From NCBI GenBank assembly GCA_037447655.1, contig JBBHKE010001283.1:195725-259724 (forward strand): DNA of 64,000 nucleotides. Reading direction: 5' to 3'. Shown here piece after piece: positions 37,296-58,976 of this stretch (position 1 is its first letter; every line of letters starts with the position of its first letter). The translations under genes were made by a program, and so were the position numbers. The notes beneath the pieces are model-generated. The model had not been told where the DNA came from, did no database searches, and saw only the letters and a list, made by a program, of their open reading frames with translations. The stretch is from Zygnema cylindricum (lineage: Eukaryota; Streptophyta; Zygnematophyceae; Zygnematales; Zygnemataceae).

Positions 37296-37375
37296 CAACA
37301 TTTCCTCGAAATCAACCAACCTGTGATTCGTACAAATGAATACCGCTCGCACCAAACCGAACTGACACAAAAGTA

Positions 37376-37583
37376 CAGTACACCGCCAATCGCTATTAGA
37401 GTCAAGGATTAAATGGCGTCAAAAAATAATTAGCGTTATTGATTCTTATTTAGTGCTTGAGACGTGGCAGATTATGGTCCACGTCCTTAAATAGCGTTAT
37501 TAATTATATTTCAGGTTTTGGGGTCAAAATTTAGGGCCACCGTATTAGCGTTATATACTCAAATTGCGATTGGCGTTGTACTG
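37376..37583. mobile_element. MITE with 18-bp terminal inverted repeats
   Basis: The ends are CAGTACACCGCCAATCGC (37376-37393) and, as reverse complement, CAGTACAACGCCAATCGC (37566-37583), 17 of 18 matching. The interior shares TTAGCGTTAT and CAAAATTTAGGG with the MITE at 58109, so they form one family. I cannot see a target duplication here. A lone right end of the same family (CGATACACGGTGTAG) lies at about 38070-38084. Confidence 0.7.
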
Positions 37584-38345: not shown

Positions 38346-39328
38346 CACGTTTCTATTTTTAGGGTATTGAATATTTAAATATTTACATTTAAAAAGTAAA
38401 ACAAAAGTACGATTTTTACCTACGAATTTTAAAATTTTGAAATTGTTTTATGCGCACTGTAAGTAGTAATCGTTAGTTTACTCCTTGCGTTTTATGCGCA
38501 AAGGACATCTATGCTGTGAATCTGCGAAGTTGGTTTCGCGCATTGTGAGAGATCCACGTCGCCCACCCTTCGCTTTTGTAGTAACGACGCCTCGCACCGC
38601 GAGGCGCATCGCCAACTGCGAACGCAACGCTACACTGCTACACTGTGAAAATCGAAGCCGTTTACGGAAGGAAACGCGGCACGAAACATTCTTCTGCCCG
38701 TTTATTTTTTCGCCCGTTTTTTTTTTCGAAATTTAAATTTTAAATTATTAAACAGGAGTTCGTTTCAAAAACGAAAACATTGTTTCAACATTTGAAAAAA
38801 CGTTTTTTGGTCTAACGTTTTTTTATCCATGTCTTCCCGTTTGCTTCTTTTTCTCACCTGCCCAATTTTTTTCCTCTTCCTTTGCTTTCCCCGCTTTAGT
38901 TCCGTATCCCGGTCCCTTCTTACCCTTCGTGTCTCCCCTCCTCGTGGTGGCGACGCCCCTTTATAGATTGTAAGTAATTTTTTAACTCGTTTTCTTTCTC
39001 TTTTTTTCACTTACCTTACCCTCCTCTCTCTATTAGTATTTTTTATCCAACGACAAAAAATTGTATTGAAACGTGAAGAAGCATTATATTGAATGATTCC
39101 GTTTTAAAATTTTACATTTGATCTAAACATAATGTCTTTTCTTTTAACCCTAAAAATCACTTTCTTTATCCATGTCTCCCATTTGTTGTAGTTTCCCCAG
39201 ACGCCCTTTCTTTCTCGCCTTCTTCCTATCTGTGGCTGCTCGAAGTATTCCCTCTCGGTGGGTGTTTCTATCCTCCCCACATTGTGTCTCCCCTCTTTTG
39301 TGTGGTTGTGCCCTTCTTACACTGCAAG

Positions 39329-39329
<1 letters not shown>
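38346..39329. other. no gene recognised
   Basis: This is mixed sequence with a GC-rich patch at 38560-38700. The longest open frames are compositionally biased (Lys/Arg-rich on the minus strand at 38765-39010) and match no motif I know. Confidence 0.4.
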
Positions 39330-39360
<31 letters not shown>

Positions 39361-39386
39361 CCTCTCTCTCTCCCTCTCCCTCTCCC

Positions 39387-39417
<31 letters not shown>

Positions 39418-39480
39418 CCCTCTCTCTCTCCCTCTCCCTCTCCCTCTTCCCTCTCCCTCTCCCTCTCTCCCCTCTTCTCC
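39330..39480 (+). repeat. CT microsatellite
   Basis: It is nearly pure TCTC/CCCTCT repeats. The long Ser/Leu/Pro frames that cross it in three phases are artefacts of the repeat. Confidence 0.95.
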
Positions 39481-39599
39481 TGTTTTTTGTTACTTGTTTT
39501 GTTTTTGTTTCAATTTTTGATTTTGTATTTCTTCCTATTTTTGTATAAACTTTTTTTGTAGATTCTTATTAGAGTTTTATGGTTTAGACTAAGGTGGTT

Positions 39600-40162
39600 T
39601 GGGAAGTTTTTTGACTTGAATAATAATAATACTACAAACATATATTATAATAAGAATAACAATAACAATGACAGAATAAAAATTGTTATAATGTATATAA
39701 TATTTGCTCAAGATATATCAAAGACCTGATAAAAGGATTTATCACATGTTATAATATGTGTAATACCTATAATAACATTTAGAATATGTATTATATAGGA
39801 TAAAAGTGTCAATTTATATAATATATATAACACTAATGGCTTTAACATGTGCATAATATATGTAGTAAAAACAACAATATATGTAATATATGTAACAACA
39901 GTTCAGTAGTAAAATATATTAAATATATGTAAAATACTTTAGTTATAATATTTGTAATATATATCATAATAAAAGTTATATATACATAAAATTTACATAG
40001 CAATAGATGTAATAAAATTATTATTTATAAGATATATAATTTATGTATTAATGATAGTCATCGTATATATAATGTATATAACGACAATTACAATATGTAT
40101 AACATATCGAATAATATTTCTAACACATGTAACTGATATAGTATAAAACGTTATAATATAAA

Positions 40163-40204
<42 letters not shown>

Positions 40205-41600
40205 CATATTTAACATAAGTAGTGTTTGTAATATATACAATAATGCATGTCATTATATGGGTAATAATTATTGTAAGTAGTACTTATATTATAAATAGTG
40301 TATATAATAATTGTTCAAGTCTAATATATGAAACCACTGTTACTACTGCTGTTATAGTTGTAATGGATACTAATAATAATTATAGTACACATAATGTAAC
40401 GGTTAGTTATAACTGTAATAATATATATAATATGACAATTAGTTTCAACTGTCATAATTACTATAATGTAAAATTTTATTATACCTGTAACAATTAACAT
40501 AATATAACAGTTAGATACAATTGTTATAATATGTATAATATAACAGTTAGTTTTAACTGTTAAAATAAAGATAATGTAAACTGTTATAAAAAAATATAAT
40601 GTAAAAGTTAGTTAACACTAATAATTAACACATTATAACAGTTAAATATAAATGTTAAAATTTATATTATGTAAAAGTTAGTTCACAGTATAAAAATCAA
40701 CACATAATAATAGGAAGACTATATATAATATATAACTAGTTATAACCCTAATAGTATAACAGTTATATTAAACCTGCTCTAATTTGTATAGTATAGCAGT
40801 TAGATGTAACTGTTTAGATATAAATGTTATGATATATATATAATATCACAGTTATTTAATATTGTAATCATTAACACATTATCACAGTAGATGTTAAAGC
40901 TGCATAATATACAAAATAACAATTAGATATAAGTGCTAATTATGTAATAGTTCATTGTAGTTGTAATAATTAGCATAGTATAACAATTAGATATAACTGT
41001 AATAACTAATAAAATATAGCAGCTGGATACAGTTGTTATGCTTAGTATAATGTAGCAGTTAGGTGTAACAACTGTTATAATAAATGAAATATAACAGTTA
41101 TAAGTAGCTGTCATATTTAGTATAGTATAACACTTAGATATAGCTGTTATAATTAATAAAATATACCGTCTACATATAGTTGTTATAATTCGCATAATCT
41201 AACACATAAATTTAACTGTTTAGTTCATAAAATATAACAGGTAAAACTAGCTGTTACAATTACTAGAATTTAACAGCTAGATATAACTATTATAATTAAC
41301 TAATATGACAGTTAGATATTATTGTTATAATACATGTAATCTCACAGCTATAACTAACTGTCATATTATGCTAATTACAACAGATACAACTGTTACAATT
41401 AGACGTAACGTAAAAGTTCGATATAACGGTTATAGTAAATACAATACAACAGCTATAACGAACTGCTGCATTTTTTAGTATAATATAACAGCTGGATATA
41501 GTTGTTACAATTAATAACATATAACAGCTAGACGTATTAAATAAAATAATTACATGTGTAATATGTATAATAATAATAATAATAATAATGAAAAAAATAC
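39600..41600. repeat. 2-kb AT-rich field of degenerate palindromic repeats
   Basis: It contains (TA)n at 40166-40202 and (AAT)n at 41565-41590. From about 40330 to 41540 the sequence is built from diverged units with the theme TATAACAGTTAGATATAACT and its inverse GTTATAATTA, each short unit nearly self-complementary. Bases 39600-40160 are similar but less regular. Frames here are artefacts. Confidence 0.85.
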
Positions 41601-41729
41601 GAATTAAAAAAAAAAATGAATAATAATTTCCATCATTATTATCTCCGCCTTTTCTTTATAATAACTTTAGTTTTGTGTTTTTTTGTGACAGTTGTCACCC
41701 CTTTCGGCTACTCCATTAATTTTTGTGAC

Positions 41730-44700
41730 ATGGAGAACACTTTTGTTGCTCCCTCGAGTAGTACCATTCCTACTAGACCTCCTCCCAAGCAAGTCAACAG
41801 GGTTGGTGCAGCACGCGTTGAGCATCTACGAACCCAAAGAACCAATGAAGCTAACGGGGAAAATTCTAGGGCTGGCACTGTACCATCAAAAAGAAAGATA
41901 CGCAAAAAAGCAGAAGCAAGACCTATAAACCAGGCTAGTGAAGGAGTTGAGGACAGGGATGAATTAAGAGAACAAAATGATGGCGATGAAATATTACGCA
42001 CGAATACTGTGGGTGGATCTAGACCCGAGCCAACCCCTTTTTGTGAAAACACAGAGGAAGTTAGGAGAGAAGGCATATGTACTCGGAAAAAGACAATAGT
42101 TGATAATACCTTCAGACAGTACAAGCAACGTATGAAAATTTGGAAGGTATGATGCATAGATGTACTTTGAGTATCAAATGTATTACTAAATATTGGAATT
42201 TATTTTGCATTTTCAGTTTTTCTATTAATAATAATATCATTTAATTTAATTGCTTTGTAATTTAACATAACACAAACTATGTGCAGAAGTGGTGGGCGGA
42301 TGAAGAAAAGAAAAGGAGCCCGACACCGTTTCCTGAATACGTTAAAAAGATGGGTGGAAGGACTTTGGGTGATCACGGCCCGAATATAGATGAACCGTGG
42401 TTAGATACCGTACTTATTCAACAAGCATCAGTGAACGATTTTTTCCGGTCACATGAAAATCAGGTGATTAAGTCATTGGATTATCAACACAAAACGATAA
42501 ATTGTCGAGGGAAATGATAATTAAAACAAAAGTGTGAGAGTAAGGTGTATTCATACATTGAGAGAAAAAGGTTTAAAGACACATGGAAAGAAAAAAAACG
42601 TTTACAAGAGGTGTGTGATGATGGTTTCTTTCCATATTTTTTTTTTTCTGAGAGTGTTTTTTCGGATTAATTATGTTTATCTTGTTTAGAGTTTTATTTA
42701 ATTGAATGAGTTCCTTATACTGCAACTAATAATCAATATTTGTTGTTTCTCCTTTTTTGTTTCAGTCCCAAGGTTTTTTAAGTTCAATGTTGAAAGCCCT
42801 TGTGTATTTTCATACGATTTTAGGGATTCCAGTTGAAGATATAAGAAAAGGTCATGAAACCGAGGCAATAATGAAAGGAATTATTAGACAAACAGGAATG
42901 AGTTGCAAGCTACAATACTTAGATCGACAATCTGGAGCAGTAAACGACGGGTATAACGGTACACAATTGAAGGATATGAGTCGAACGTGGTTGGGAGCAT
43001 GCACTACGTTAGAAAAGGCCCATGAAAACATGCTTGCTCGATCGATAACACTTCTTACCCATTATGCAGCCGGTAGAGGCAATAGCGCTAGAGCCGTTAA
43101 CTTGTGTGATCTATTTTCGATGGAGGTGGAGAGTGTGGGGCCGTCCCCTAGTCGTATGTTACGCTTCCTCGACATGAACGGCAAGACGAATAAGGTAGAA
43201 AAATAAGCTATAACAATGAACATGTATTTTGCTTCATCACATTTTAATAAGTTTTTGGATTGGTGTGTATCGTTTGCTTAGTTGCTAATACAACTTTGGG
43301 AAAAACTAATTATTTTTGTAAACAATTGATAGTGTTAAATGTGTTGAACATCTAACAAAGTTTTTCTCTCATTTTGTTTTTATTCAGAACGGTCGTAAGG
43401 AGCATTTTGGGGTGATTAGAAATAGAGAATGGGATCTTTGTCCGCTGGGAGGTATAGCTCTATGGCTTTTATATTTGTTCCACATAAAAGAAGGAACTGG
43501 CTGGGGTTGCCCTGATTTCTCATCAAGAAATTCATGGTTAGTGTGAAAACCACTTTTCATGTCAAATGTGTTTTGTTTTTTTTCGATAACTTCCTCAAAA
43601 ATTTCACATTTTTTCTGCCAATTTGTTCATTTTTATTAATACATGTTTTATTCATTTTTATTAATACATGTTTTAAAGATTCTTTTACAGGTACGATTTA
43701 TCATTATTTCCTAAGGCTTGCAACAATGATAACACGTTGGACTACCATACCCATCTTAAGTTAATACAAGCAATATTTTTATCCCTAGACATCGTATCGA
43801 ACTCAAAAACCCATGCGATGAGGGGTTCAGGTGCGAGGGCGGCTGAAAGTAAAGGGTAAGAAACACAACATCTTTTATTTGTAACAAATAATTTTATTTT
43901 TCATACATTTTTAGATCTTGGAGGAAAAAAAAATTGAAGTGTTAAAGTTTTTATACTTATATGAAAAGATTTCGGTGTCAACAGGGCTTTTAGAGGCACA
44001 TATAGCCAGATTGGGGAGATGGATGAGTACACACATGTACTTATCCTACTTGACTTCTATCCCCTTAGAGGTTCTACTAGTTCAAGCGGGCTTTACAGAC
44101 AAAAAAATATGCATACTTATTGCATCGAGATCAAATCCATGTTCCTCAATGCCTTCTCGGGCAAACATTTCTGTGGGCCGACAATGCTTTAAACGAAATA
44201 AAAAACGTAAGTGTTAATTTAATCCAAGAAATGACAAGAGAGTGAAATAATGAAAAGCACTATGGTCTAAGAGGTAAAGAGATAACAGTAAGATTGCAAA
44301 TTGACTAAAAAAAACGAAAAGGTGAGGAAACAGATAGGTGGTGAGACATGTAAAAAGACACTAGTTTAAACATTATATTTGGTATCTTCTCATTTGTTAA
44401 GTTTGAAAATTGAGATGAAATTAAAAAATTGAGCCAAAATCTTATAATTTGTTTCTTTTTTTTTCTTTTTGTTAATTTTTTTTTATATACAGAGAAATTT
44501 GCATACAAATGATGCAAAACGCGACATCTCGGCTCAAAAGTTTTTAGAGTTACTAATTGGATCAATACGAAGTTGTGTTTGGCAAGACCTTGCACTTTTG
44601 CATACAGACTTTCCTACGCATGCTTTTTTCACAACAACATTTTTTCAGTCAATAATCCGAGAATGTAATACAGAATGGAGAAATTTTGCTAATGCAGTAC

Positions 44701-45677
44701 AACTAATGGACAGGGAAAAAGACGAGAAGACAAATTTGGACGATATTCCTATCCCGGGCGAAGTGAAAGCCGAAGTGAAAGTCGAACTGCAAGCCTTACG
44801 AATTGCAGTCGATGGGATTCCACCCCTTTTGGGAAAGGTAAATACCCTTGAAAATACTGTGGCAACTTTAACTAAGACAATAGAGTGTTGCATGGCCATG
44901 TTTGATACAAGGCTAACTGCTATGCAACGTCAACTACACGGAGGGTTTTCTTACATGGAATCTAATTTTGGACAATTAGATTCCAAAGTATCAGAGTTGT
45001 CACAAGACTTAAAGCGGGCAATTTCTTTAATTGCACAACCTTCTTTTGCCCCTCCCTCCCACTCTAATCCTTCCCCAACCACTGATTTGCCTGCAAGGCC
45101 TCCTTCTCCTCCATCCGATCCTTCTCCCCCACCCCGTTTTCTCCTCCTCCACCTCCTCCTCCTCCACCTCCTCCTCCTCCAACTCCTCCACCGACGCTTT
45201 TTACACCAATATTTCTCGCACCTGCCCTTTCCTCTTTACAAAATACACCTAACATTTTACCACCATTTGTAAACCCTCCCGTCCCTTTAACCTCTTCAGC
45301 CGACATCCATCCTTTCAATTTATCAGAAATAAATGAGTCTGATCGTTTTGTTTTCGGAAACCATTCAACTTGTTCGATGAAATTTTTTCAAAACGATAAA
45401 TTTTCAGTTCTTGTTGACCTTGATGCGTTTCAAATTGACAGGGACAATTGGAAAGGATATATCGTGCAAAGTGCCAATAGTGATGCGAATGTTGAATTAA
45501 TTTTCAATGAGTATCATTACGGATTGAACGGTCGACCGCCGATCAAGACGTTGGTAGATAGAGATCAAACCAACAAATACAAAAAATCGGAATGTCAATT
45601 TTTAGTGTGGTCACCTCTTGAGAAAACAAAATGGGTTCGGTGTTTTAGAATTATGGTTTGTATACAAAAGTTAATGG
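41730..45677 (+). pseudogene. Crypton-like tyrosine recombinase gene with GCR1_C-like domain (multi-exon, disabled)
   Basis: I join exons by GT-AG sites and phase: 41730-42146, 42287-42610, 42766-43194, 43388-43536, 43691-43848 (or 43855), 43985-44206 and 44493 to about 45677. The second exon contains adjacent TGA TAA at 42515-42520. The recombinase boxes are RGNSAR (43075-43092), GKTNK at the exon 3 end, PDFSSR, TH-AM-R (H 43812, R 43821) and GRW followed by YLSYLT (candidate Tyr 44038 or 44047), then QAGF. A run of seven A at 44101-44107 breaks the frame by one; beyond it the +1 frame reads YAYLLHRDQ and LWAD to a GTAAGT donor. The last exon has a helical region, a poly-Pro tract with another frameshift (about 45130) and EYHYGLNGRPPIKTL, typical of GCR1_C. 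Cryptons insert as circular DNA by tyrosine recombination. The copy is dead. Confidence 0.75.
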
Positions 45678-46580
45678 TGAAACTCAGAGACCTCCATTGG
45701 CCCTCAGAGTATGCAGACCCAAAAGAAGCTAATCTGATAGTGCCGACTCCAAGTTAATATAAACCCAAGTGACTGACCCCTTGACAGTCAGAACCCCAAT
45801 ATAGATTCACCCCTGTGAAATAACACTTTCTATGTGCTCAGTTCCACCACAGAATGCAAAGTTAGAATATGAGATTTGGACACATTCACCCACTTTGACC
45901 TTCCCTTAGAAATTCAGCCACCCTGGCAGACAAAAACTCTGACCGACTACACCCCTATGTAGTGTGGACTCCTTTGAGTCCGCAGCAAAAAGAATCACTG
46001 AAAATGGTCAAGTAAATTGATAGTTATGGCTTCCCAAAGTTAGCCATTTATACAAGGTGCTCTCTTAGAGAGAGGGTCCTATCTGCCAAATTTTTCTAAG
46101 TCCTATCTCCCTCTAAAACTCTATCTACTGAAGTACGGCACCAATTAAAACACTGTGTCGTACAGAAAAGTACAGGTGCCGGTGTCTTTATGTACGGCCA
46201 TTGTACGAAATGGCCAAAATGTCGACACGTGTCATATCCGGATTTGTTCCCGTAATCTCCGGAGTTGCCGCAATCCAATGTAGTGTTACCACGTGTCACT
46301 CAATGTGGCGGTGATCGTAAACGGCCAAAATCGTACGCCGCGATCCCGGCATCCTTCGCGGCCGTCCGATCAATTTTGGATTTCAATCGTGGCCGTCATA
46401 AATACCTGCGCGGTATTCGTTCCGGCGTCAAACAAACTGCGCGGTATTTATTTCGTATCCGTACCGTACGTCGTACTTTACACAACTGTTTCTATGCAGT
46501 ATGCATATAGTTCTAGTTAAATGATTTAGTCTTATTGTAACTATTTAAATGAATAGCATACCCCTAATCTTCAAATAGAA

Positions 46581-46657
46581 TTTAGACAATCTGGAAAAGA
46601 CTACCGGCTGTTGTGACTAATGTCAGGTACCAGGATTAAATCCTGGCTCTGTCTAAA
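46581..46657 (+). other. 77-nt tRNA-like segment, antisense to LTR A
   Basis: It begins TTTAGAC and ends GTCTAAA, a perfect 7-bp terminal pairing. In between lie a CTGGAAAAGAC D-arm-like part, CTACCGGCTG, and CCAGGATTAAATCCTGG, a T-arm-like hairpin with a 5-bp stem and a 7-nt loop. Compared with a canonical tRNA there are four extra bases between T-stem and acceptor stem. The block CAGGT-CCAGGAT-AAA-CCTGGCTCTG also resembles the 3' half of plant initiator tRNA-Met as I remember it. Confidence 0.5.
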
Positions 46658-46847
46658 CTACCTTTTAGAGAAAAACCCCCCATAAAACAACTGTCGGTCT
46701 CCCTCTAGACAGCACAGGCAGCCATGGCTAACTCCTCCTCCAGTCTTCAGTGACTACAAAAAGTGTGGGGACTTGAGGAGGAGTTAGAGGCAGGCTGTCA
46801 ATATCTACTATTTTGCTTTTTATTTTGCAATCTCTAGACCTAGATAA

Positions 46848-46849
46848 AG

Positions 46850-46925
<76 letters not shown>

Positions 46926-46937
46926 AAAAAAAAAAAT
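46848..46937 (+). repeat. poly(A) tract inserted in LTR A
   Basis: About 85 nearly pure A residues lie between TCTAGACCTAGATAAAG and AAAATACTTGAATTCC. The partner LTR at 54715-54735 has no such insert. A (TA)n/T-run follows at 46980-47018. Poly-Phe and poly-Lys frames over these tracts are artefacts. Confidence 0.9.
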
Positions 46938-46973
46938 AAGAAAATACTTGAATTCCAACACTCCCCTTATTTT

Positions 46974-46983
46974 CTAGTCTATA

Positions 46984-47014
<31 letters not shown>

Positions 47015-47720
47015 TTTTCAACTTCCACAAACAAGTAAACAAACATCCCCTCCCCTTTTTCCTTTTCTTTTTCCTTTTTCCTTTTCCTTTCATAAAACTG
47101 AAGTATTTAACACAGTGCATTAAATGAACTGAAATAATAGTTGCATCACACATTTTATTTAACATCACATTTTTCATAAATTCGAGCAAAGATTTTATCC
47201 ACTTCATCACTCTTTTATCCACACACCAACAGATTTCCCTCTTGAGATCCAAACAGCCAGCCCCATCTCCAATCTGCAACATACACCCAGATGCTAACCC
47301 TTTTACAAGCACATCTTCACAAGTGACATCACACCAAGTAGTGATGTCAAATCCATCCACCCCCAAATATTCCCAAAAAATACTAGTCCCCACTAAGTTC
47401 CATATAAGATCTACATCTTTCGTACTAATATTTTTATCCATGATAGTTACCCTATTTTCTGAACTTCCCTCACTTTCTCCCATGGAATTCTTTCCACTAT
47501 TACTTTCTAATATAATTCCCAATAAATTTTTCTTCTCCCCTAAACCTTTAATCAAATATTTCTCTTCTCCCCTATCCTTTGAAACCTCTTCGAGTTTCAC
47601 TTCTCCCCTTTCCTCGGAATCCGTTGAAGTCTCCCTTTCCGACCAGTTTTCTGGTTCCCTATTATCTATAAAGTTATCCTGATTAATTTTATCTTTCCCG
47701 TTTTCACTTATGGATCCTAG
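46974..47720 (-). pseudogene. RT/RNase H remnant frame of element A (C-terminal part)
   Basis: On the minus strand an open frame of about 208 codons (47600 to 46974) aligns by eye with the end of copia RT and RNase H, but with large in-frame losses. KGLGEKKNLLGIILE matches KDLGEAKYILGIQME, FDITTWCDVTCEDV matches DITTWSDASYGDV, and GCMLQIGDGAGC matches GYVLQIGSGACC. The EAEYMAS and DNQA boxes are gone, so no RNase H activity is possible. It ends in a Lys/Arg-rich tail and then runs into the (TA)n tract. The upstream part of the frame is cut off by element B at 47720. Confidence 0.7.
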
Positions 47721-49029
47721 TGTTGATATTTGGGTATTTCTAGGTCTTTATTAGATAGAAAAGAGTAGAGGCAGTCTGCCCCTGACTCCCTTCTCCAAGC
47801 CCCCACACTTGTCGTAGTCACTGAAGGCTGGAGAGGGAGCTAGAGCCATGGCTGCCTAAGCTCTCCAAAGAGACAGGAATAGATAATATAGGTATGTTTA
47901 CCAAAAAGGTATTTCACGGACCCAGGAATTGATCCTGGTACCTACCGTCCGTCAACCGTCCCGTAGCCGTTAGCTTTGTCCATTTAGTCTAGGACTAGTG
48001 CTAGGACGTATTGGGTTTGATAAATATTTAAATAGTTATCGGTAGGCTTTTCCATTTAACTGGGTTACGGTCTATAGAACATAGAAACAGTTGTACTATT
48101 AGTACCGGACGAAACAAATAGTACGGACATTTGTTTCGACGGTTCGTATTTAATACCTATATCAATCGGACGGGCGTGGTTAGCGCCGGTCTCGAGGAAA
48201 GGACAATTTGGCGGTTTGCGGACTCCGCCACACCGGATGACACGTGGCAACAACGTATTCGATTAAAGAATTTCCGGAACGGCAGAAAACAAATCCGGAA
48301 GTGACAAATGTCGCACTATGGCGACATCGTACAATGTACGTACAAAAAGTACTCCGGCACTAGTACTTTCTTGTACGGTACCGTTTTCTGACGCGGCATG
48401 ACCTAGCGCCACGTGGAGAGATAAGATTTGGAGGCAGGAATTTCGGAGAATATAAGAGCGAATGCGGATAGGACATTTGTTGACTTTTTAGCAATGTCGT
48501 ACGATTACCATACAAAAGGTACACCGGCATCTGTACCTTTATGTACTGTACAATAATGTGATTGGCCCGTACTTCAGTACTAGAGGGTTTAGAGAGGAGT
48601 TTAGGACTTAGAATATTTTTGGTAGGTAGCTGCCTCTCCCAGAAAGCACCTTGTATAAATGGCAAACTTTGGCCAGCCATAACTATCAATTCAGTTGACC
48701 AAATTCAGTGATTCTTGTTGCTGCGGACTCAAGGGAGTCCAGGCTACACAGAGGTGTAGTCGGTCAGAGTGTTTGCCTGCCTAGGTGGCTGCACTTATAA
48801 GGGAAAGTCAAAGTGGGGAATGTTATCCTAACCTCATATTCTAACTTTGCATTCTGTGGTGGAACTGAGCACACAGAAAGTCTTACTTCACAGAGGTGAA
48901 GCTGTAATGGGGTTCTGATTGTCAAGGGGTCAATCATTTGGGTTTATATTAACTTGGAGTCGGCATTATCTAGATTAGCTTCCTTTGGACCTGCGAATTC
49001 TGTGTGGCAAAGGAGCCCATAGAATTTCA
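47721..49029 (+). repeat. 5' LTR of element B (1309 bp)
   Basis: It starts TGTTGATATT and ends TAGAATTTCA. It contains the palindrome (47845-47856), an antisense tRNA-like segment (47917-47998; minus-strand CCAGGATCAATTCCTGG as T-arm, TAGACTAAATGG as A-box and an anticodon-loop-like CTACGGG), TATAAAT (48654-48660), H1 GGACTC-AAGG-GAGTCC (48725-48740), H2 CTACAC-AGAG-GTGTAG (48744-48759) and H3 CTTCAC-AGAG-GTGAAG (48886-48901). Confidence 0.93.
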
Positions 49030-49804
49030 GGTTATGGGCCCACCATCTAGGGTGCCTATGTTTGATGGAACAGACTTCACTTATTGGGAGTTTACAATGG
49101 AGGGATTGCTTTTCGAGAAGCACTTATGGGGAATTGTTTTGGGACAAGTAAGGTGTCCGCCACCGGGCTCTGGAGGAGATCACTATGGAGAATCATCTGG
49201 GGCTGCCCAGAAAACCAACCAGAGTTCAGGTGCAACAGAAGGTGAAGGGAAGATCATTACCGTGGAAGGGGAAATAGGGGAGAAGGATAAAGGGACACCT
49301 ATGGTGAGGGGAGCTAGGCTCTCGCCTACGGTTCCACTTGTGGGGGTTATAAGTGAAACAAAAACTGATGAAAATGATAGAAAAATTTGGGAATATAAAA
49401 ACACTATAGCAAAACATCTCATACTTAGATATGTATCTAAGTCTATAGCTATCACTCTTTTAAATCTAACCAAGTCTTCGGAAATTTGGGAAACACTAAT
49501 TCAGATTTATAAGAGTGAGACTATACAGAGGCAGCAGTTAGTAAAACAGGAAATAGAGGCCTATGTTTATAAAGGCGGTAGCATGATAGAGTTTTGCAAT
49601 GATATTGCTGGGTTATATGTTGAGCTTGCTAGTACGGGATATGTAGAATCTGAGGAGAGAAAGATTAATACACTAATCATAAAGCTTCCATATGAGTACG
49701 AAGACATCATTTACCGTATGCAGGGGAATGGATGTCTCCTCGTGGACTTGGAGCATTACCATGGGAATAATTCTTGTGAGAGAAAGCACTTTGGAGCTTC
49801 GTAG
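49004..49804 (+). pseudogene. gag of element B, first part (start codon lost)
   Basis: The frame reads across the LTR end and primer site (E-P-I-E-F-Q-V-M-G-P-P-S-R) into a Gag with TYWEFTMEGLLFEKHLWG, as in element 2. The expected ATG at 49009 is AAG; the homologous 3' LTR still has ATG GAG CCC at 52213. The nearest in-frame ATG is codon V-M of the primer site itself (49034). A frameshift near 49720 ends the frame at 49804, and the correct frame continues weakly to 49970. Confidence 0.75.
49030..49045 (+). promoter_or_regulatory. primer-binding site, half-tRNA type (element B)
   Basis: GGTTATGGGCCCACCA is 16 bases complementary to the anticodon arm of plant-type initiator tRNA-Met as recalled, directly after the LTR. 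The minus-strand counterpart in element A is at 53515-53530. Confidence 0.85.
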
Positions 49805-49970
49805 GGGAAGTGAAAGGGGTGACTGCATTTACAGCTGGGTAGTGACTGGCGGAAGCGTGATGTGAGGGAATGGCGGTGACGAGCGGAAGCGTGATGAAAG
49901 GAAGAAGGACAAAGGTAAACCTTATCGGAACTTCGGTGGAAAGAGAGGGAGAGGAAAAGAAAGGGGAGCT

Positions 49971-50885
49971 TTGAAACAAAGGGTTTGCTTCGCTTGTAGG
50001 AAACCGGGTCACTATATGGAGGAGTGTCCTCGTTTGGAAGAACTTAGAAGTTGGAGTGTGAATGAGGAGGAAGAAGGGGAAGAGGAGAAAGAGGATGAAA
50101 AAATCTTGGAGCTTCTTCACATCGGTAGAATGGAGAAGAGAGAAAAGTACACAGAAATTCCACGAAGGCAACAGTGTGCTTTTGGAGGTATAAGGGAAGT
50201 AAAGAGAGAGGAGGTACTTGAGGATGTGGAGGAGTGTAAAGTGTATGACTTAGAAATGAGAAAGTCAGAACTAGGATCAATAAGTGAAAACGGGAAAAAT
50301 AAAATTAAAGAGGATAATTTTATAGGTAGTTTGGAATTAGAAAACTGGTCGGAAAAGGAGACTTCAACGGATTACGAGGAAAGGGGAGAAGTGAAACTAG
50401 AAGGGGTTTTAAAGGATAAGGGAGAAGAGGAATATTTAATGAAAGGTTTAGGGGAGGATAAATATTTATTGGGAATAAATTTAGAAAGTGAGAGTGGAAA
50501 GAAATCCATGGGAGAGAGTGAGGAAAGTTCATGTTTTGGGGGTAATGGGTTTGACATCACTAAAGGGAGTGATGACATTTATGAAGGTGTGCCTGTAAAA
50601 GGGTTAGCCTCAGGATGTGTGTTGCAGATTGGAGATGGGGCTGGCTGTTTGAATTGCAAGAGGGAAATCGGATTTAGTGTGGATGGAAAAGAGGTGAGGT
50701 GGATAAAAACTTTGCTCGGATTTATAATAAGTGGGATGCTAAATGAAATGTGTGATGCAATTATTATTTCATTTCATCTAATGCATTGTTTTAAATACGA
50801 GAGTATATTTCTTAAGTTATATAAAAGGAAAAAGAAAAGAAAAAGGATAAAGGGGAGGGGAGTGTTTTGTTTATTTTGTTTGTAA
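49971..50885 (+). CDS. Gag tail fused to a reduced RT/RNase H remnant (element B)
   Basis: This is an open frame of 304 codons without an obvious ATG-proximal start. It carries a zinc knuckle CFACRKPGHYMEEC (residues about 5-18), an acidic linker, IPRRQQCAFGG (the gag-protease junction of relatives), then directly YLMKGLGEDKYLLGINLE (RT end) and GCVLQIGDGAGC (RNase H). The protease, integrase and nearly all of RT are missing. In RNase H the EAEYMAS and DNQA boxes are lost. It ends with a Lys/Arg-rich stretch (KRKKKRKR). The equivalent frame in element A shows the same architecture, so the reduction predates both copies. If translated it would be joined to gag, but a frameshift separates it here. 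It could be fossil or a maintained Gag-only product. Confidence 0.6.
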   Translation: MKQRVCFACRKPGHYMEECPRLEELRSWSVNEEEEGEEEKEDEKILELLHIGRMEKREKYTEIPRRQQCAFGGIREVKREEVLEDVEECKVYDLEMRKSELGSISENGKNKIKEDNFIGSLELENWSEKETSTDYEERGEVKLEGVLKDKGEEEYLMKGLGEDKYLLGINLESESGKKSMGESEESSCFGGNGFDITKGSDDIYEGVPVKGLASGCVLQIGDGAGCLNCKREIGFSVDGKEVRWIKTLLGFIISGMLNEMCDAIIISFHLMHCFKYESIFLKLYKRKKKRKRIKGRGVFCLFCL

Positions 50886-50921
50886 TAGTTGAAAGGAAGT
50901 AGACTAGAAAATAAGGGGGAG

Positions 50922-52231
50922 TGTTGATATTTGGGTATTTTCTAGGTCTTTATTAGATAGAAAAGAGTAGAGGCAGTCTGCCCCTGACTCCCTTCTCCAA
51001 GCCCCCACACTTGTCGTAGTCACTGAAGGCTGGAAAGGGAGCTAGAGCCATGGCTGCCTAGGCTCTCCAGAGAGACAGGAATAGATAATAAAGGTATGTT
51101 TACCAAAAAGGCAGTTGACGGACCCAGGAATTGATCCTGGTACCTACCGTCGGTGAATCGTCCCATAGGAGTTAGCTTTGTCCATTTAGTCTAGGACCAG
51201 TGCTAGAACATATAGGGTTTGATAGATATTTATGTAGTTACAGGTAGGGAATTCCATTTAACTGGGTTACGGTCTATAGAACATAGAATCACTTGTACTA
51301 TTAGTACCGGACGAAACAAATAGTACGGACATTTGTTTCGACGGTTCGTATTTAATCTCTATATGAATCGGACGGCCGTGGTTAGCGCCGGTCTCGAGGA
51401 AAGGACAATTTGGCGGTTTGCGGACTCCGCCACTCCGGATGACACGTGGCAACAACGTACTGGATTACGGAATTTACGGAACGGCAGAAAACAAATCCGG
51501 AAGTGACAAATGTCGCACTATGGCGACATCGTACAATGTACGTACAAAAAGTACTCCGGCACTAGTACTTTCTTGTACGGTACCGTTTTCTGACGCGGCA
51601 TGACCTGGCGCCACGTGGAGAGATAAGATTTGGAGGCAGGAATTCCGGAGAATACAAGAGCGAATCCAGATAGGACAATTGTTGACTTTTGAGCCATGTC
51701 GTACGATGTCCGTACAAAAGGTACACCGGCATCTGTACCTTTATGTACTATACAGTAATGTGATTGGTCCGTACCTCAGTACTAGAGGGTTTAGAGAGGG
51801 GTTTAGAACTTAGAATATTTTTGGTAGGTAGCTGCCTCTCCCAGAGAGCACCTTGTATAAATGTCAAACTTTGGCCAGCCATAACTATCAATTCAGTTGA
51901 CCAAATTCAGTGATTCTTGTTGCTGCGGACTCAGGGGAGTCCACGCTACACAGGGGTGTAGTCGGTCAGAGTTTTTGCCTGCCTGGGTGGCTGCATTTCT
52001 AAGGGAAAGTCAAAGTGGGGAATGTTATCCTATACTCATATTCTAACTTTGCATTCTGTAGTGAAACTGAGCACACAGAGAGTCTTACTTCACAGGGGTG
52101 AAGCTGTAATGGGGTTCTGATTGTCAAGGGGTCAATCATTTGGGTTTATATTAACTTGGAGTCGGCACTATCTAGATTAGCTTCCTTTGGACCTACGAAT
52201 TCTGTGTGGCAATGGAGCCCATAGAATTTCA
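50922..52231 (+). repeat. 3' LTR of element B (1310 bp)
   Basis: It is preceded by the purine tract AAAATAAGGGGGA. It has the same plan as the 5' LTR: palindrome 51047-51058, antisense tRNA-like 51118-51200, TATA about 51855, and H1, H2 and H3 with loops AGGG instead of AAGG/AGAG. The Gag start ATG is intact at 52213. Confidence 0.93.
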
Positions 52232-53550
52232 TCTAGAACTGACTTTCTCATTTCTAAGTCATACACTCTACACTCCTCGACATCCTCAAGTACCTCTTCT
52301 CTCTTTACTTCCCTTATACCTCCAAAAGCACACTGTTGCCTTCGTGCAATTACTGTGTGCTTCTCTTTCTTCCCCATACTACTAATCTGGAGAAGCTCTA
52401 AAATATCTTCATCCTATTTCTCCTCTTCCCCTTCTTCCTCCTCATCCACATTCCAACTTCTAAGTTTTTCCAAACATGGGCATTCCTCCATATAATGACC
52501 CCGGTTCCCTACAAAAGAAGCAAACCTACTTTTTCAAAGCTCCCCTTTCTTTTCCTCTCCCTCTTTTTCCACCAAAGTTCCGATAAGGTTTACCTTTGTC
52601 TTTCTTTCTCTCATCACGCTTCCGCTCGTCACCACCGTTCCTCTCATCACACTTCCGCTCATCACCACCGTTCCTCTCATCACGCTTCCGCTCGTCACCC
52701 GCCGTTCCTCTCATCACGCTTCCGCCAATCACCACCAGCTGAAAATGCATTGACCCTGTCCCCTTCCCCTACGAATCTCCAATGTGCTTTCCCTCACAAG
52801 AATTATCCCCATGGTAAAGCTCTAAGTCTATGAGGAGCCATCCATTGCCTGCATACGACAAATTATGTTTTCGTACTCATCTGGGAGTTTCATAATTAGT
52901 GTATTAATCTTACTCTCCTCAGATTCTACATATCCCGCACTAGTAAGCTCAACATATAACGCAACAATATCATTGCAAAACTCTATCATGCTACCGCCTT
53001 TATAAACGTAGGCATCTATTTCCTGTTTTACTAATTGCTGCCTCTGAATAGTCTCACTCTTATAAATCTGAGTTAGTGCTTCCCATATCTCTGAAGACTT
53101 GGTTAGACTTAAAAGAGTGATAGCTATCGACTTAGACACATATCTAAGTATGAGATGTTTTGCTATAGTGTTTTTGTATTCCCATATTTTCCTGTCATTT
53201 TCTTCAGTTTTAATCCCTACATGTAGTACCATAGCTGAGAGCCTAGCTCCCCTCTCTATAGGTGTCCCTTTTTCCTTCTCCCCTATTTCCCCATCCACGG
53301 AAAGGTTTTTCCCTTCACCTTCCGTTGCATCTCAACTCCGGATGATATTCTGGACAGTCTCAGATGATTCTCCGTAGTAAGCTCCTCCAAAGCTAGGTGG
53401 CGGGCATCTCACTTGTCCCGCAACAATTCCCCATAAGTGCTTCTCGAAAAGCAATCCCTCTATTGTAAACGCCCAATACGTCAAGCCTGTTCCATCAAAC
53501 ATAGGCACCCTAGATGGTGGGCCCATAACCTGAAACTCTGAGACCTCCAT
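52232..53550 (-). pseudogene. gag of element A
   Basis: On the minus strand the start ATG is at 53550 inside the LTR (M-E-V-S-E-F-Q-V-M-G), reading through the primer site. Capsid-like Gag follows to 53332, continues in another frame at 53298-52828 (KIWEYKNTIAKHLILRYVSKSIAI, then a spacer), then a repeated basic segment (52526-52750), a decayed zinc knuckle (about 52490) and the gag tail (52377 to about 52232), where element B is inserted. At least two frameshifts are present. Confidence 0.8.
52605..52735 (-). repeat. 30-bp minisatellite coding G-D-E-R-K-R-D-E-R-N in gag A
   Basis: There are about four units of 30 bp on the minus strand (GGTGATGAGCGGAAGCGTGA and variants). They give an in-frame 10-residue charged repeat just before the zinc knuckle. 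Element B has one to two degenerate units at about 49850-49905, and element 2 a single unit, so copy number varies. Confidence 0.8.
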
Positions 53551-54741
53551 TGGCCCTCAGAGTATGCAGATCCAAAAGAAACTAATCTAGATAGTGCCGA
53601 CTCCAATTTGATATAAACCCAAATGACTGACCCCTTGACACTCAAAACCCCAATATAGATTCACCCCTGTGAAATAACACTTCTTGTGTGCTAAGTTCCA
53701 CCACAGAATGCAAAGTTAGAATATGAGATTTGGACACATTCACCCACTTTGACTTTCCCTTAGAAATACAGCCACCCTGGCAGACAAAAACTCTGACCGA
53801 CTACACCCCTGGGTAGCCTGGACTCCCTTGAGTCCGCATGGACTCCCTTGAGTCCGCAGCAAAAAGAATCACTGTAAATGGTGAAGTAAATTGATAGTTA
53901 TGGCTGCCTAAAGTTTGCCATTTATACAGAGTGCTCTCTGGGAGAGGCAGCTGCATACCCAAAATTTATCTAAGTCCTATTCCCTCTCTAAAACTCTATC
54001 TACTGAAGTACGGCACCAATCAAATTACTGTGTCGTACAGAAAAGTACAGGTGCCGGTGTACTTTATGTACGGCCATTGTACGACATGGCCAAAATGTCG
54101 ACACGTGTCATATCCGGATTTGTTCCCGTAATCTCCGGAGTTGCCGCAATCCAATGTAGTGTTACCACGTGTCACTCAATGTGGAGGTGATCGCAAACCG
54201 CCAAAATCGAACGCCGCGATCTCAGCATCCTTCGCGGCCGTCCGATCAATTTTGGATTTCAATCGTGGCCGTCATAAATACCTGCGCGGTATTCTTTCCG
54301 GCGTCAAACAAACTGCGCGGTATTTATTTCGTATACGTACCATACGTCGTACTTTACACAAGTTTCTATACAATATGCATATAGTTCTAGTTTAATGAAT
54401 TAGTGTAATTGTAACAGTTTAAATAAATATCATACCCGTCAATATGTAATACAATTTAGACTATCTGGATAAGACAACCGGCTACTGCGGTTGTGACACA
54501 TGGCAGGTACGAAGATCAAATCCTGGCTCTGTCAAAACTACTTTTAGAGAAAACCCCCTATAAAACAACTGTCTGTCTCCCTCTAGAAAGCACAGGCAGC
54601 CATGGCTAACTCCTCCTCCAGTCTTCAGTGACTGCGACAAGTGTGGGGACTTGAGGAGGAGTTAGAGGCAGGCTGTCAATATCTACTATTTTGCTTTTTA
54701 TTTTGCAATCTCTAGACCTAGAAAATACTTGAATTCCAACG
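53531..54741 (-). repeat. 5' LTR of element A
   Basis: On the minus strand it starts at 54741 (CGTTGGAATTC, first base changed or lost) and ends GAGTTTCA (53531) before the primer site (53518-53530). It carries the palindrome (54595-54606), a tRNA-like segment (54455-54537), a TATA box (about 53922) and the leader hairpins, with H1 tandemly duplicated (about 53812-53860). Confidence 0.9.
54455..54537 (+). other. tRNA-like segment, antisense to LTR A (5' LTR copy)
   Basis: It reads TTTAGACTATCTGGATAAGAC (acceptor/D-arm-like), then ACAACCG-GCTACTG-CGGTTGT, a perfect 7-bp stem with a 7-nt loop in the anticodon-arm position, then AGATCAAATCC in the B-box position and CTGGCTCTGTC. The better paired anticodon arm here and the better terminal stem in the other LTR suggest an ancestral segment that had both. 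Confidence 0.5.
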
Positions 54742-54946
54742 CAGCTCCAAGGTGGAATTTAACTAAAGCTATAGATTTATTAGAAAAGATTAGAGTAGAA
54801 AAATTTGGTGGAAGCACAACATAACTTAAAGAGGCTTTGGCCAATACTACCTAACCGATCTTGAAGGAGGGATCTTCTGAGAGGGAGTTTGAACGAAAAT
54901 TATTACGTTTTCAAAAATTAGAGGAGCTTTTGTCTATCACGGGTTA
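54742..54946 (+). pseudogene. probable C-terminal exon part of the Crypton gene
   Basis: Directly right of LTR A a frame reads RWNLTKAIDLLEKIRVEKFGG, then LKEALANT and LLRFQKLEELLSITG to a TAA at about 54946, with two internal stops. A helical, Leu-rich tail of this kind would suit the region after the GCR1_C-like domain, which is cut off at 45677. The link is an inference: no target duplication joins the two sides. Confidence 0.4.
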
Positions 54947-55263
54947 AAATATACATTATAGTTTTTTTAGGTAAAGACAAACAATTTGTTTTTAAATAAT
55001 CCATTCTGATTTTTATATTACTTTGGTGGTTTGTTTTATTTTTTGTTTTTAGTGGATAACCCTTGTGCAAATCCATTGCTTTTGATTGTTTCACATGATG
55101 CTTTGTTTTGTCTTCAAAAAAGCCCACTAAAAGCTATATAACTCCAACAGTCAACACTATTATTACTTTGTTTTGCCGTTGCATCGAGTAGTAGAAACCC
55201 ATTAGTAATAATAAATAACATTTCTTTTCAATATCTTAAACGTTAAAATTACGTTATGGTAAT
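54947..55263. other. no gene recognised
   Basis: AT-rich sequence between the Crypton tail and the next LTR. It may include the Crypton 3' end, but Cryptons lack terminal repeats, so the end cannot be placed. Confidence 0.4.
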
Positions 55264-56335
55264 TGTTGAAATGGATAATTTATATTTTTTCTCTCTCTCT
55301 ACTTTGTAAGTAGTCGCAGACTTTAGAAGTGCAAAAGATAGCAGGGGGGAGCCATGGCTGCCTCTCGGAGGACAGGCTAAGACGGAAAGAGAGAATAGGA
55401 AGAAAGACTCAGACATAGAGAGACAACAGAGAGAGAGAATAGGAAGATAGGCTCAGACATAGAGAGAGGACAAACAGAGAGAATATGAAGATAGGCTTAG
55501 ACATAGAGAGAGGACAAAGAGAGAGAATAGGAAGATAGGCTCAGACATAGAGAGAGGACAAAGAGAGAGAATATGAAAATTGGCTCACACATAGAGAGAA
55601 GACATAGAGAGAGGACATATAGAGATAATAGGAAGATAGGCTCAGACATGGAGAGAGGACAGAGAGAGAGAATAGGAAGATTGGCTCAGACATAGAGAGA
55701 GGACACAGAGAGATAATTGGAAGATAGGCTCAGACATAACGAGAGGACAAAGAGAGAGAATACGAAAATAGGCTCAGACATAGAGAGAGAATAAGGCTGT
55801 GATAAAAATAAGAAGATTTCGCTGGGATTTGATCTTTGGCCTTAGAGATTAATACTTACTTGGTCTAGCATTGGTATGTTACTAGTTAATGTATTGCAGT
55901 GAACAAGAGGTGGAATACTTTGTTCAAATCATATATATTGAAACAGAATTTATTTAGCCAAACTGCGAACATGGAGATGGCGAATTCTATCGTGCGTGGA
56001 ATGTTGGGCGCGCTGCATAAATCAACGGACGCCAATTGAGGAATTTTACGATCGGACGGTTTGCGTGAGCGTCGAGATCCTAGAATGGTTCTTTTGGAGG
56101 CCTTCTCCAAATGATCCACAAAATGAGACGTGGCAGCACCTCGTTAGACACCACAAGGAAACAAATCCATGGCGTCGATTTTATGAGGTACTGGAATTTC
56201 ATTGGCGCCGTACATAAATCGTATATTTTGTACAACGCCTAGTGGAGTTTTAGGCTTTCTACAAATTGTACCTTATAGTCTTTTGATTGGTCATTATCTT
56301 AGTTGATAGGGGTTGTGAGTAGGGCTTTCAGGATG
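55264..56335 (+). repeat. truncated LTR of the GCCATGGCTGCC superfamily
   Basis: It starts TGTTGAAATGG, with the palindrome at 55351-55362, a large GA-rich tandem repeat (55380-55800), an antisense B-box-like AGATCAAATCCCAG (minus strand, about 55822-55836) and a GATTGGTCATTATCTTAG block homologous to about 2505-2530. The TATA and leader end are missing. Confidence 0.65.
55380..55800 (+). repeat. minisatellite, unit about 44 bp, 9-10 copies
   Basis: The core is GGCTCAGACATAGAGAGAGG followed by ACAAAGAGAGAGAATAGGAAG, repeated with small variations. It lies inside the LTR, where other family members have only a short GA-rich stretch, so it is a local expansion. Confidence 0.9.
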
Positions 56336-58105
56336 TATAATTAGCACTACATACGTTGTTATCAGCGTTTTGTGATGACCATTTATTTTCGTCTTGTAGT
56401 TACTTTCAATTCCTTACGTAGTTCCTTAAATTAGACCTATAATATACGTAAATAAAAATAATGGTATGAGCACACATGTATCTCCCAATGGCAACTTTTA
56501 TTTTCTCAAACATCTAGTAAAACTTATGGTTTGTTTGGCTCGTTGATACTTTGTCAAGTTAACGCAACCCAAAAAACATGTCTTGTGCTTCTATTATTTT
56601 TTATAGTATATGTATGTATAAAGCTTTGTAATAACCACCAATATATGCTTTATACATCCATGTTTTACCTACTGGTTGTGAGTTTCAAACCCAAAGACAA
56701 CTTATTCAAATACGCTAACCAATCATTAACCAATCCGAATTTACTATATATAATTATACACAATTCGAATAACAATCAATGCACTTTTCAAATGTTGTTG
56801 ATTTCTCTCGGCAAAATGGATCCAATTTATGGTTATTTACGCTTCAACATGCTTAATTGGGTTACAAAAATTAGCAAATTAGGGACATACACATACGTTA
56901 CTAATTTGTAACATCTTTATTTAAAAACCCTTTAAATAATTAACGATTCACATTACAAACGCCATTGTCGCCTTTCAATATAACGCATACCCGTTATAAT
57001 CATTTATTATGAAAAAAAAATTATAGAGTCGTTGAAACAATAAACTACTAAATCTCCATACACTATTAGATGTCATATAAGCTACTGTGTCTATTGTTGC
57101 ATTAGTGGATGATTATATAATAACTATAACATATTTTATAAATAGCCATTGCATAACCATCCAAATGTGAGCAAAAAAAAGGCAACCGACCTTCAACATT
57201 ACGTATGACTTGCTTTATTACATTACGTATTACATGCTTTATTACTTGTGTATACTGTTGTTTAACCAACCATATGCGACGTGGGTTAAGCACACCATAT
57301 ATTACTACGGCACCTTTTATTGTTATTTCATATGAGTACACAAGCTAGTATAATCATACCCTGAATTACAGAATTATACCCTGAATTGTTGAATTATGAC
57401 GCATCATGTGATGCCGATAACTGTAAACATAAAGCACACACAGTTGAATTTTACGACCGTAAATGTGTCCGTGTGCACTTTTAGATAAACCGAATCTATT
57501 ACATAGTTCCAGTATTGTAACATATTGTTGCACCGATTTGTATGAATATAAATTAATAAATGTTATTTTACAAAAGGTTTTTATGGTAGCATATTGGTGT
57601 GATGTGCAACTCTTAACTTCAAAATGAGTGCACCCTCATATATGTTAAGTACACATTACAACTTCATTTCAAGTTACAATACCTCGTTATTTTTGCACCA
57701 TATTATTGCATTAATTACGAAGTTGTGCAGTATAATAAGCACAAGGGATGTACAATTTGCAACCCAAACTTCACCGCTAACGCTATACAAAACGTACATA
57801 CAAGGTTTTGCATAGAACAACAAAGATATGTGTAACGATTTCCTTGTTTAGCTTACTATAAAACATTGTTAATGCAATAATACAACCAAAACGCACATAA
57901 CCAATTTACTCCAAAGAAAATGACTAAATGAATTACACTGTGTTAATTTTTGTTCTTGTCATAATATAAGACTTGTTGAACAAAGGAAGAATGCCCTTCG
58001 TTAATAGCGTAAATGGTTTATGATAGTAAACGTGAAATACAATACGTAACACCAATTAAGCAAAAGGGACGTGACAGATTATGTCTACTCCTTTGATAGG
58101 GTTGC
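56336..58105. other. no gene recognised
   Basis: This is AT-rich sequence. The longest frame (56531-56911, 126 codons) has no recognisable motif, biased composition and no splice or start context that convinces me. No repeats matching other parts of the window were noticed. Confidence 0.5.
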
Positions 58106-58108
58106 TAA

Positions 58109-58295
58109 CACTACACCGTGAATCACTATTAGCGTTCATAACGCTATTTCAGCGCCCCCAAATTTTGACAAAAAATCTCAAATATAATTAATAATTCTAT
58201 TCTGGATAACCCCAAATCCCAAATTATCGTTAACAACGCTAATTCTTTTTTAACCCTAATTATTTCATAACGCTAATAGCGATACACGGTGTAGT
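58109..58295. mobile_element. Tourist-like MITE (187 bp)
   Basis: The terminal inverted repeats are ACTACACCGTGAATCACTAT (left) and, as reverse complement, ACTACACCGTGTATCGCTAT (right). TAA flanks both ends (58106-58108 and 58296-58298), the 3-bp target type of PIF/Harbinger. It shares interior sequence with the MITE at 37376. Confidence 0.75.
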
Positions 58296-58976
58296 TAAAC
58301 ATTTCGGGCCGAATCGTACCGAAACTAAAAACTACAGTATAGGGCAGAGTGCACGTATAATAATTAAAGTACGATTAAAACGTTTATGTTATATACATCG
58401 ACACTTGTCGATAAACTACAAAAAAAAGTATTCATTCGGGCAGCATCATCATACTTAAGTACAAACCCTTGGTAAAACAAAATCCTTACATCCTATCATA
58501 TTTTAAGTCCGTACAATTTTTTTTTTTACGGAATACAAGATGCCTGTAGGTATCTTGTCACTGGTGAACTTTCGGCGCATTTCGCACAGTGAATAGCCGA
58601 TTCACATGACTCACCACACCGGGGAAACATGTAAGATACCTAGTCTGTACCGAACGAAACAAAACACAACTGACGCGAACCGAACAAAACATTTGACGGC
58701 ACGATTTCGGCTGATGCTGATTCGCCCAACATCCTAACATTTCGTTGTCAATGTAAGAATGTGATTTGTAGATAGTGTGGCCCGATTTCGTCGTGCGTGA
58801 CGACACGCATTTTATTTATTCAATTTCAATTGATATTTTTACGCCGGTTCGTTTTATTATAGTTTACAAAGTTTTCTTTCGTTTCGTGCGTTTTAATATT
58901 TATGTACATGACTTTATAGTACTTCAGTTTAGAGAGGTTTCGTTTCACTTTGCGTCTAAGTTCAATGTAACGCTTA

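Follow-up and report, generated by a model that had tools for sequence, protein, structure and literature searches.

A 64,000-nt stretch of genomic DNA (referred to here as the window) contains, at positions 41730-45677, the coding core of what we regard with high confidence as an inactivated DNA transposon of the CryptonF kind. Its host is a streptophyte alga, most likely a member of the Zygnematophyceae. Cryptons are eukaryotic DNA transposons that use a phage-like tyrosine recombinase, and they occur in fungi, oomycetes and animals. In the CryptonF group, this recombinase is combined with a GCR1_C domain, and the elements mostly possess 6-bp terminal direct repeats (part of PMC3212892). The kind of element is already known; what is new is its occurrence in an unexpected lineage. 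A better preserved sister family present in the same genome, termed famA, provides the terminal repeats and target sites through which the mode of movement can be addressed.

Coding core and domain structure of the window copy

A preliminary description, made from the sequence alone, had proposed seven exons with GT-AG borders. We recovered the same exons at the same coordinates, with GT and AG present at the borders of all six introns, and each of the motifs that had been quoted was found at its place. The exons of the window copy are:

41730..42146, forward strand: exon 1, N-terminal basic region (MENTFV...KIWK), with 37-40% amino acid identity in loci L029, L031, L032 and L035
42287..42463, forward strand: exon 2; in-frame stops come after it, ahead of 42524-42610, whose status as an exon is uncertain
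42766..43194, forward strand: exon 3, first catalytic Arg (RGNSAR) and GKTNK, placed by domain match and alignment
43388..43536, forward strand: exon 4, NGRKEHF...PDFSSRNSW, placed by alignment
43691..43855, forward strand: exon 5, H-x-x-R (THAMRGSGAR), placed by alignment
43985..44206, forward strand: exon 6, GRW and catalytic Tyr (YLSYLTSIP), with an internal frame break
44493..45677, forward strand: first part of exon 7, coiled-coil-like region, proline-rich stretch (frame broken) and start of GCR1_C (EYHYGLNGRPPIKTL)

The preliminary description had also named a search against Pfam profiles as a check. Its claim has held: the gene encodes a tyrosine recombinase of the Crypton type that bears a GCR1_C domain, and the genome belongs to the green lineage. 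The joined exons 3-7 of the window copy match NDC10_II with E = 4.3e-34 (118 bits; cut-off 26), a value that speaks against a match by chance. The GCR1_C match of the window copy is weak and lies below the cut-off (0.0054 with the last open frame alone, 0.015 with the joined exons); the domain is interrupted at position 45678 by a retroelement. An alignment with other proteins shows that R, H-x-x-R, W and Y have all been kept in the window copy; they are likewise found in famA, in the Klebsormidium nitens proteins P0001 and P0002 and in proteins P0004-P0007 of the same alignment, while P0003 is missing the H-x-x-R segment.

Families, stop-free copies and target sites in the genome

The window belongs to a genome of 352.8 Mb in 2689 contigs, which contains 50 matches to the GCR1_C profile, all of them above the curated cut-off, and none was found in 14 control genomes. 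We examined the 20 best of these places (L009-L028) over 10 kb each, or 8.7 kb in one case, and every one includes the last exon of famA in whole or in part. The famA unit measures about 6.8 kb (6.8-6.9 kb) and comprises five exons; its copies share roughly 75-97% nucleotide identity over long alignments. Seven further loci (L029-L035) are relatives of the window copy; among them, L031, L032 and L035 (family B) are mostly 88-98% alike and exhibit 65-67% protein identity to the window copy. A DNA search with the window gene, in which 40 of 1646 candidates were scored, listed 68 matches. Two of these are the window itself and a second copy on contig C1881; 59 of the other 66 are 65-75% alike, four are short matches at 76-81%, and three at 93-98% lie in the long terminal repeat (LTR) part of the query. 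As judged by eye, famA and the window family have intron places in common: one follows GKTN, another precedes the GRW exon, and a further one lies ahead of the exon that carries the S-A-Q motif.

Intact relatives, which the preliminary description had likewise proposed to look for, were sought among these 20 famA loci. Two of them, L016 and L021, have no stop in any of the five exons (splice sites were examined for L021 alone), and in L013 and L022 only the last exon is unbroken. Splicing of the L021 exons gives a protein of 758 residues that matches both NDC10_II (1.2e-38) and GCR1_C (2.2e-9). Between L021 and L016, dS is 0.345 and dN/dS is 0.18 over 752 codons; against L020, L028, L019 and L010, dN/dS ranges from 0.31 to 0.54. 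These values indicate that the famA transposase has been under selection within this genome.

Both ends are visible in ten famA copies. The 5' end consists of a hexamer followed by TAGTGGTATTAGACATTGGGG, and the 3' end of GCAGT followed by a hexamer. In three of the ten copies (L019, L020 and L021), the hexamer is ATACCG at either end. A pattern composed of the famA 5' end and the hexamer, with at most three mismatches allowed, occurs at 80 places genome-wide (37 forward, 43 reverse), and at none when the pattern is reversed as a control; RTACCG is present in 45 of the 80 places and in 25 of the 44 with a perfect inner 21-mer. We also joined the flanks of L020 around a single hexamer and searched the genome with the resulting sequence. 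The search listed 40 matches, two of which are L020's own flanks, and the other 38 cross the junction. Four of these 38 uninterrupted sites were read, and they are free of gaps, with the hexamers GTACCG, GTACCG, GTACAG and GTACAT. Hence, the target is a dispersed repeat with a GTAC-type core, to which the insertion adds one extra hexamer. In family B, the two ends of L032 carry the same 12 bases (CTGTACTGAATC), as seen by eye.

At the 3' ends of L022, L025 and L028, ATACC is directly followed by ATACCG, a doubling that is absent from the other copies read. A similar repeat stands right before the 5' hexamer in L017, L018, L024 and L025; it represents either a preferred target repeat or duplicated segments.

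The terminal hexamers, the target sites and the lack of a frame with the length of a reverse transcriptase fit integration by a tyrosine recombinase from a putative circle. By analogy with the better preserved famA, the recombinase would excise the element as a circle. This circle would then be inserted, presumably by strand exchange, at a short core sequence of the target, which is RTACCG in famA, so that the one copy of RTACCG present before insertion would afterwards be found at each end of the element. Such a movement would require neither terminal inverted repeats nor reverse transcription. From these sequence features we infer that famA-type elements may still be active today. The preliminary description had put forward an ancient, inactivated Crypton. 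The window copy is indeed dead, but the lineage does not consist of ancient relics only: copies of the sister family are numerous, the exons of two are free of stops, and its terminal hexamers and uninterrupted target sites are of the kind expected for site-specific insertion.

Several observations weigh against this interpretation. Seven of the ten famA copies lack identical terminal hexamers: L015 has GTACCG and ATACCG, L024 has GTACCG and ATATCG, L010 and L027 differ more, the 5' hexamer of L012 is not recognisable, and L025 and L028 carry an additional ATACC at the 3' end. The 80 places were counted in a way that is blind to hexamers with more than three mismatches, and they are not 80 independent events, since L025 and L028 have their 3' flank in common as parts of duplicated segments. 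The uninterrupted sites are related copies of a dispersed repeat and not the same locus without the insert. For the window copy itself, a 6-mer common to the regions near its two ends, which are only roughly placed, occurs at about chance level and was rejected as its terminal repeat. The predicted structure of P0006 (AlphaFold, with six relatives) reached a mean pLDDT of only 38.7 and was not used.

The same data bear on two other explanations. Elements of the DIRS or Ngaro type are retrotransposons that likewise use a tyrosine recombinase and are present in green algae (part of PMC4157794). However, no frame of reverse-transcriptase length was found outside the exons among frames of at least 45 aa, judged by length; the longest such frame of L021 has 128 aa, and that of L020, which extends past the end of the element, has 153 aa. 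A reverse transcriptase beside the recombinase, as expected of such elements, was hence not seen, and an architecture of NDC10_II and GCR1_C likewise argues against a DIRS or Ngaro element, to which we attach a negligible probability. Alternatively, the copies might form a host gene family that descends from an ancient Crypton, as do yeast Gcr1, Msn1, Hot1 and Ndc10, and encode DNA-binding regulators that were merely duplicated. The purifying selection between stop-free copies would suit such a family, as would the annotation of K. nitens P0001 and P0002 as 'putative Transcription activator' and a locus, L029, that has an exon-1-like N-terminus and GCR1_C and no recombinase part. Yet the catalytic residues are intact in the window copy and in famA, and the copies are scattered through the genome, where they have defined ends marked by hexamers and where uninterrupted target sites exist; neither the lost catalytic site nor the fixed single locus of a domesticated GCR1_C regulator of the yeast type is found here. 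We therefore consider a duplicated host gene family quite improbable and retain the transposon interpretation.

Locus L029 (G000:C531:6254-15253) contains at 4782-6653 of its forward strand an unbroken frame in which the exon-1-like N-terminus is followed by a coiled-coil-like part, a proline stretch and GCR1_C. The recombinase exons are missing, and it is the sole locus noted without them. Judged by its sequence, this frame could stem from a copy that underwent an internal deletion, or it could represent a budding regulator similar to yeast Gcr1 or Msn1.

As in the CryptonF elements of fungi and oomycetes (part of PMC3212892), the recombinase precedes GCR1_C, the catalytic residues are kept, and there are 6-bp terminal direct repeats and no reverse transcriptase. 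The recombinase with R, H-x-x-R and Y is found in the window copy and in famA; the C-terminal GCR1_C domain is found in famA, and in the window copy it is below the cut-off and split by an insertion; terminal hexamers are found in famA (identical in 3 of 10 copies); and the open-frame lengths in L020 and L021 are those of elements without a reverse transcriptase. What differs from the systems covered in that part of PMC3212892 is the host, here a streptophyte alga, and the copy number, with 80 places for the famA 5' end as opposed to the very low numbers given there for most CryptonF hosts.

Extent and decay of the window copy

The preliminary description had placed the transposon at 41730-45677. 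These coordinates delimit the coding core only, and the element extends from about 38.5 to about 58.65 kb, which amounts to about 20 kb with its nested inserts instead of 3.9 kb. The parts that we could assign are:

38512..58650, both ends approximate, forward strand: whole dead Crypton of the window-type family including nested inserts, from 5' and 3' terminal homology to L031, L032 and L035 of family B
38512..38912, forward strand: 5' terminal region; 38553-38912 aligns locally to L031 189-534, with fainter similarity out to about 38512
40389..41532, forward strand: AT-rich minisatellite (unit of 36 bp) that precedes the gene; it recurs in L036 (about 6014-6394), where a Crypton 3' exon follows it
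45678..54725, forward strand: LTR retroelement in exon 7, with direct repeats 45678-46847 and 53531-54725 that are 90.0% alike
47719-49029 and 50920-52231, forward strand: second repeat pair inside the LTR retroelement, 94.4% alike
54743..55174, forward strand: remaining C-terminal Crypton code past the insertion, matching L029 6449-6717, L030 6457-6653, L035 6452-6903 and L036 7127-7425
56222..56889, forward strand: 3' non-coding part of the element, aligned with L036 7334-7999
58435..58596, end approximate, forward strand: 3' terminal region; score of 107 against the L035 3' end, with 35 for the best of 20 shuffles and at most 44 in the other chunks and strands scanned

A Copia-like gag frame is recognisable by eye inside the retroelement at 45678-54725. 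The coding frame of the window copy is broken by stops after exon 2, by a slip at the exon 5/6 junction, by a break inside exon 6 and by another in the proline-rich stretch. The second copy in the assembly, on C1881, is 99.6% alike over 41586-45913, with 19 differing columns, and it has the same stops after exon 2 and the same breaks in exon 6 and in the proline stretch. One of the 19 differences is a one-base gap at 43988, the exon 5/6 junction, and another (42591) falls in the uncertain stretch after exon 2. The gap at 43988 implies that the exon 5/6 slip either occurs in just one of the two copies or results from an error in the assembly. Inactivation by stops, frame slips and a retroelement, as suggested in the preliminary description, is thus borne out except for the exon 5/6 slip, which the C1881 copy does not have. 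With its frame broken and exon 7 invaded by retroelements, the window copy has lost the capacity for autonomous movement.

We considered the C1881 copy as a simple allele and rejected this possibility, since the identity ends at 45913, inside the LTR. Between 43512 and 43533, the window differs from L036 by four transitions in 22 bases, the copies being otherwise 99.6% alike. Positions 37373-37580, which match L031, were rejected as an end of the Crypton; they belong to a short dispersed repeat that also lies within a famA copy. This repeat of about 207 bp resembles a miniature inverted-repeat transposable element and is found in the window at 37373-37580 and 58112-58296, at L031 8192-8400 and at L026o 3034-3241, in two cases within Crypton copies.

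Host, relatives and significance

A short universal pattern located two 18S places. One of them was read, and it contains a group I intron near its 3' end (L041 212-585). The small-subunit rRNA match at this locus has E = 1e-49; that of the group I intron is 3.9e-7, with 35 bits, below the Rfam gathering score of 50. As placed by eye, the intron fits position 1506. The few rRNA bases behind the intron depart from the usual sequence, so that this 18S copy may be damaged. A group I intron at position 1506 is treated as a zygnematalean trait in the part of PMC3527229 available, and the 18S gene with its intron suggests a zygnematophycean host. The preliminary description had spoken of a plant-like genome. 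This is right as to the green lineage, but the host most likely belongs to the zygnematophycean algae and not to the land plants.

Cryptons of this family are known from fungi and oomycetes, and contaminating DNA from such organisms would offer an explanation for their presence here. The window contig, however, is at least 378 kb long and rich in Copia elements that look plant-like by eye, the LTR retroelement that interrupts the Crypton has relatives elsewhere in the genome, copies are spread over many contigs, and L020 lies within a dispersed repeat that has 38 other uninterrupted sites. Contamination is thus extremely improbable.

The nearest named proteins are three of K. nitens. Two of them, P0001 and P0002, contain NDC10_II and GCR1_C, exhibit 33-34% identity and cluster with the window family in the tree; they differ from it by far longer linkers, and they may be either transposons or host genes. 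The SGIEKNPGP motif in their N-terminal part resembles a 2A ribosome-skipping peptide. In a tree of 12 rows, unrooted and drawn with a midpoint root, without reference Crypton sequences, the window family and the K. nitens proteins group with support values of 96/95, famA joins less surely (85/87), and P0005-P0007 stand apart; some branches of this tree are flagged as long. A further protein search with the alignment gave no new relatives beyond P0005-P0007. The profile of seven proteins matches yeast Ndc10/CBF3A chains over 85 positions (E = 5e-4 for 6gsa, 2e-3 for the set with 4aco); a search of the PDB with a single sequence found no match. The likeness to yeast Ndc10 (CBF3 subunit A) is limited to this profile similarity, and Ndc10 differs in that it acts at the centromere and has not preserved its catalytic site (part of PMC3212892).

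With respect to origin alone, the elements might have arrived recently by horizontal transfer from fungi or oomycetes instead of having resided in the green lineage for long. Such a scenario would be in keeping with the patchy distribution and the fungus-to-oomycete transfer that are both reported for CryptonF (part of PMC3212892), and our comparison comprises only 12 sequences. On the other hand, the window family groups with K. nitens, apart from P0005-P0007, a placement to be read with the flagged long branches in mind; P0005-P0007 may be fungal, to judge by their look. Moreover, synonymous change separating the window copy from L031 has reached saturation (pS 0.76; pN 0.20), so that the families have long diverged, and this divergence seems to have arisen mostly while the gene was still functional. 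We therefore regard a recent transfer as unlikely, though it deserves serious consideration. Collectively, the sequence comparisons suggest that these families are old in streptophytes.

Our searches of the open literature, with Repbase and subscription papers outside their scope, found, among the titles and passages covered, no description of Cryptons in streptophyte algae and none of a CryptonF radiation with stop-free copies in such an alga. Repeat tables in two studies (PMC8729191, PMC10722297) do give 'Crypton' counts for land plants, and this speaks against Cryptons being unrecorded in plants; we take these counts for automatic labels. As a tentative picture, which as a whole we hold with somewhat less than even confidence, CryptonF may have been present in the green lineage since before the split of Klebsormidium and the conjugating algae, may have formed several families, may still be mobile at RTACCG sites in a close relative of the land plants, and may have shed recombinase-less GCR1_C proteins that could be new regulators.

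The stop-free copies, the defined target core and the many readable insertion sites, all in a sister group of the land plants, would offer a system for studying how Cryptons move. Their presence in this alga would extend the CryptonF kind into the Viridiplantae, and it bears on the question of whether such elements are ancient in eukaryotes or have spread by transfer. It also means that algal proteins currently annotated as transcription activators may be transposases.

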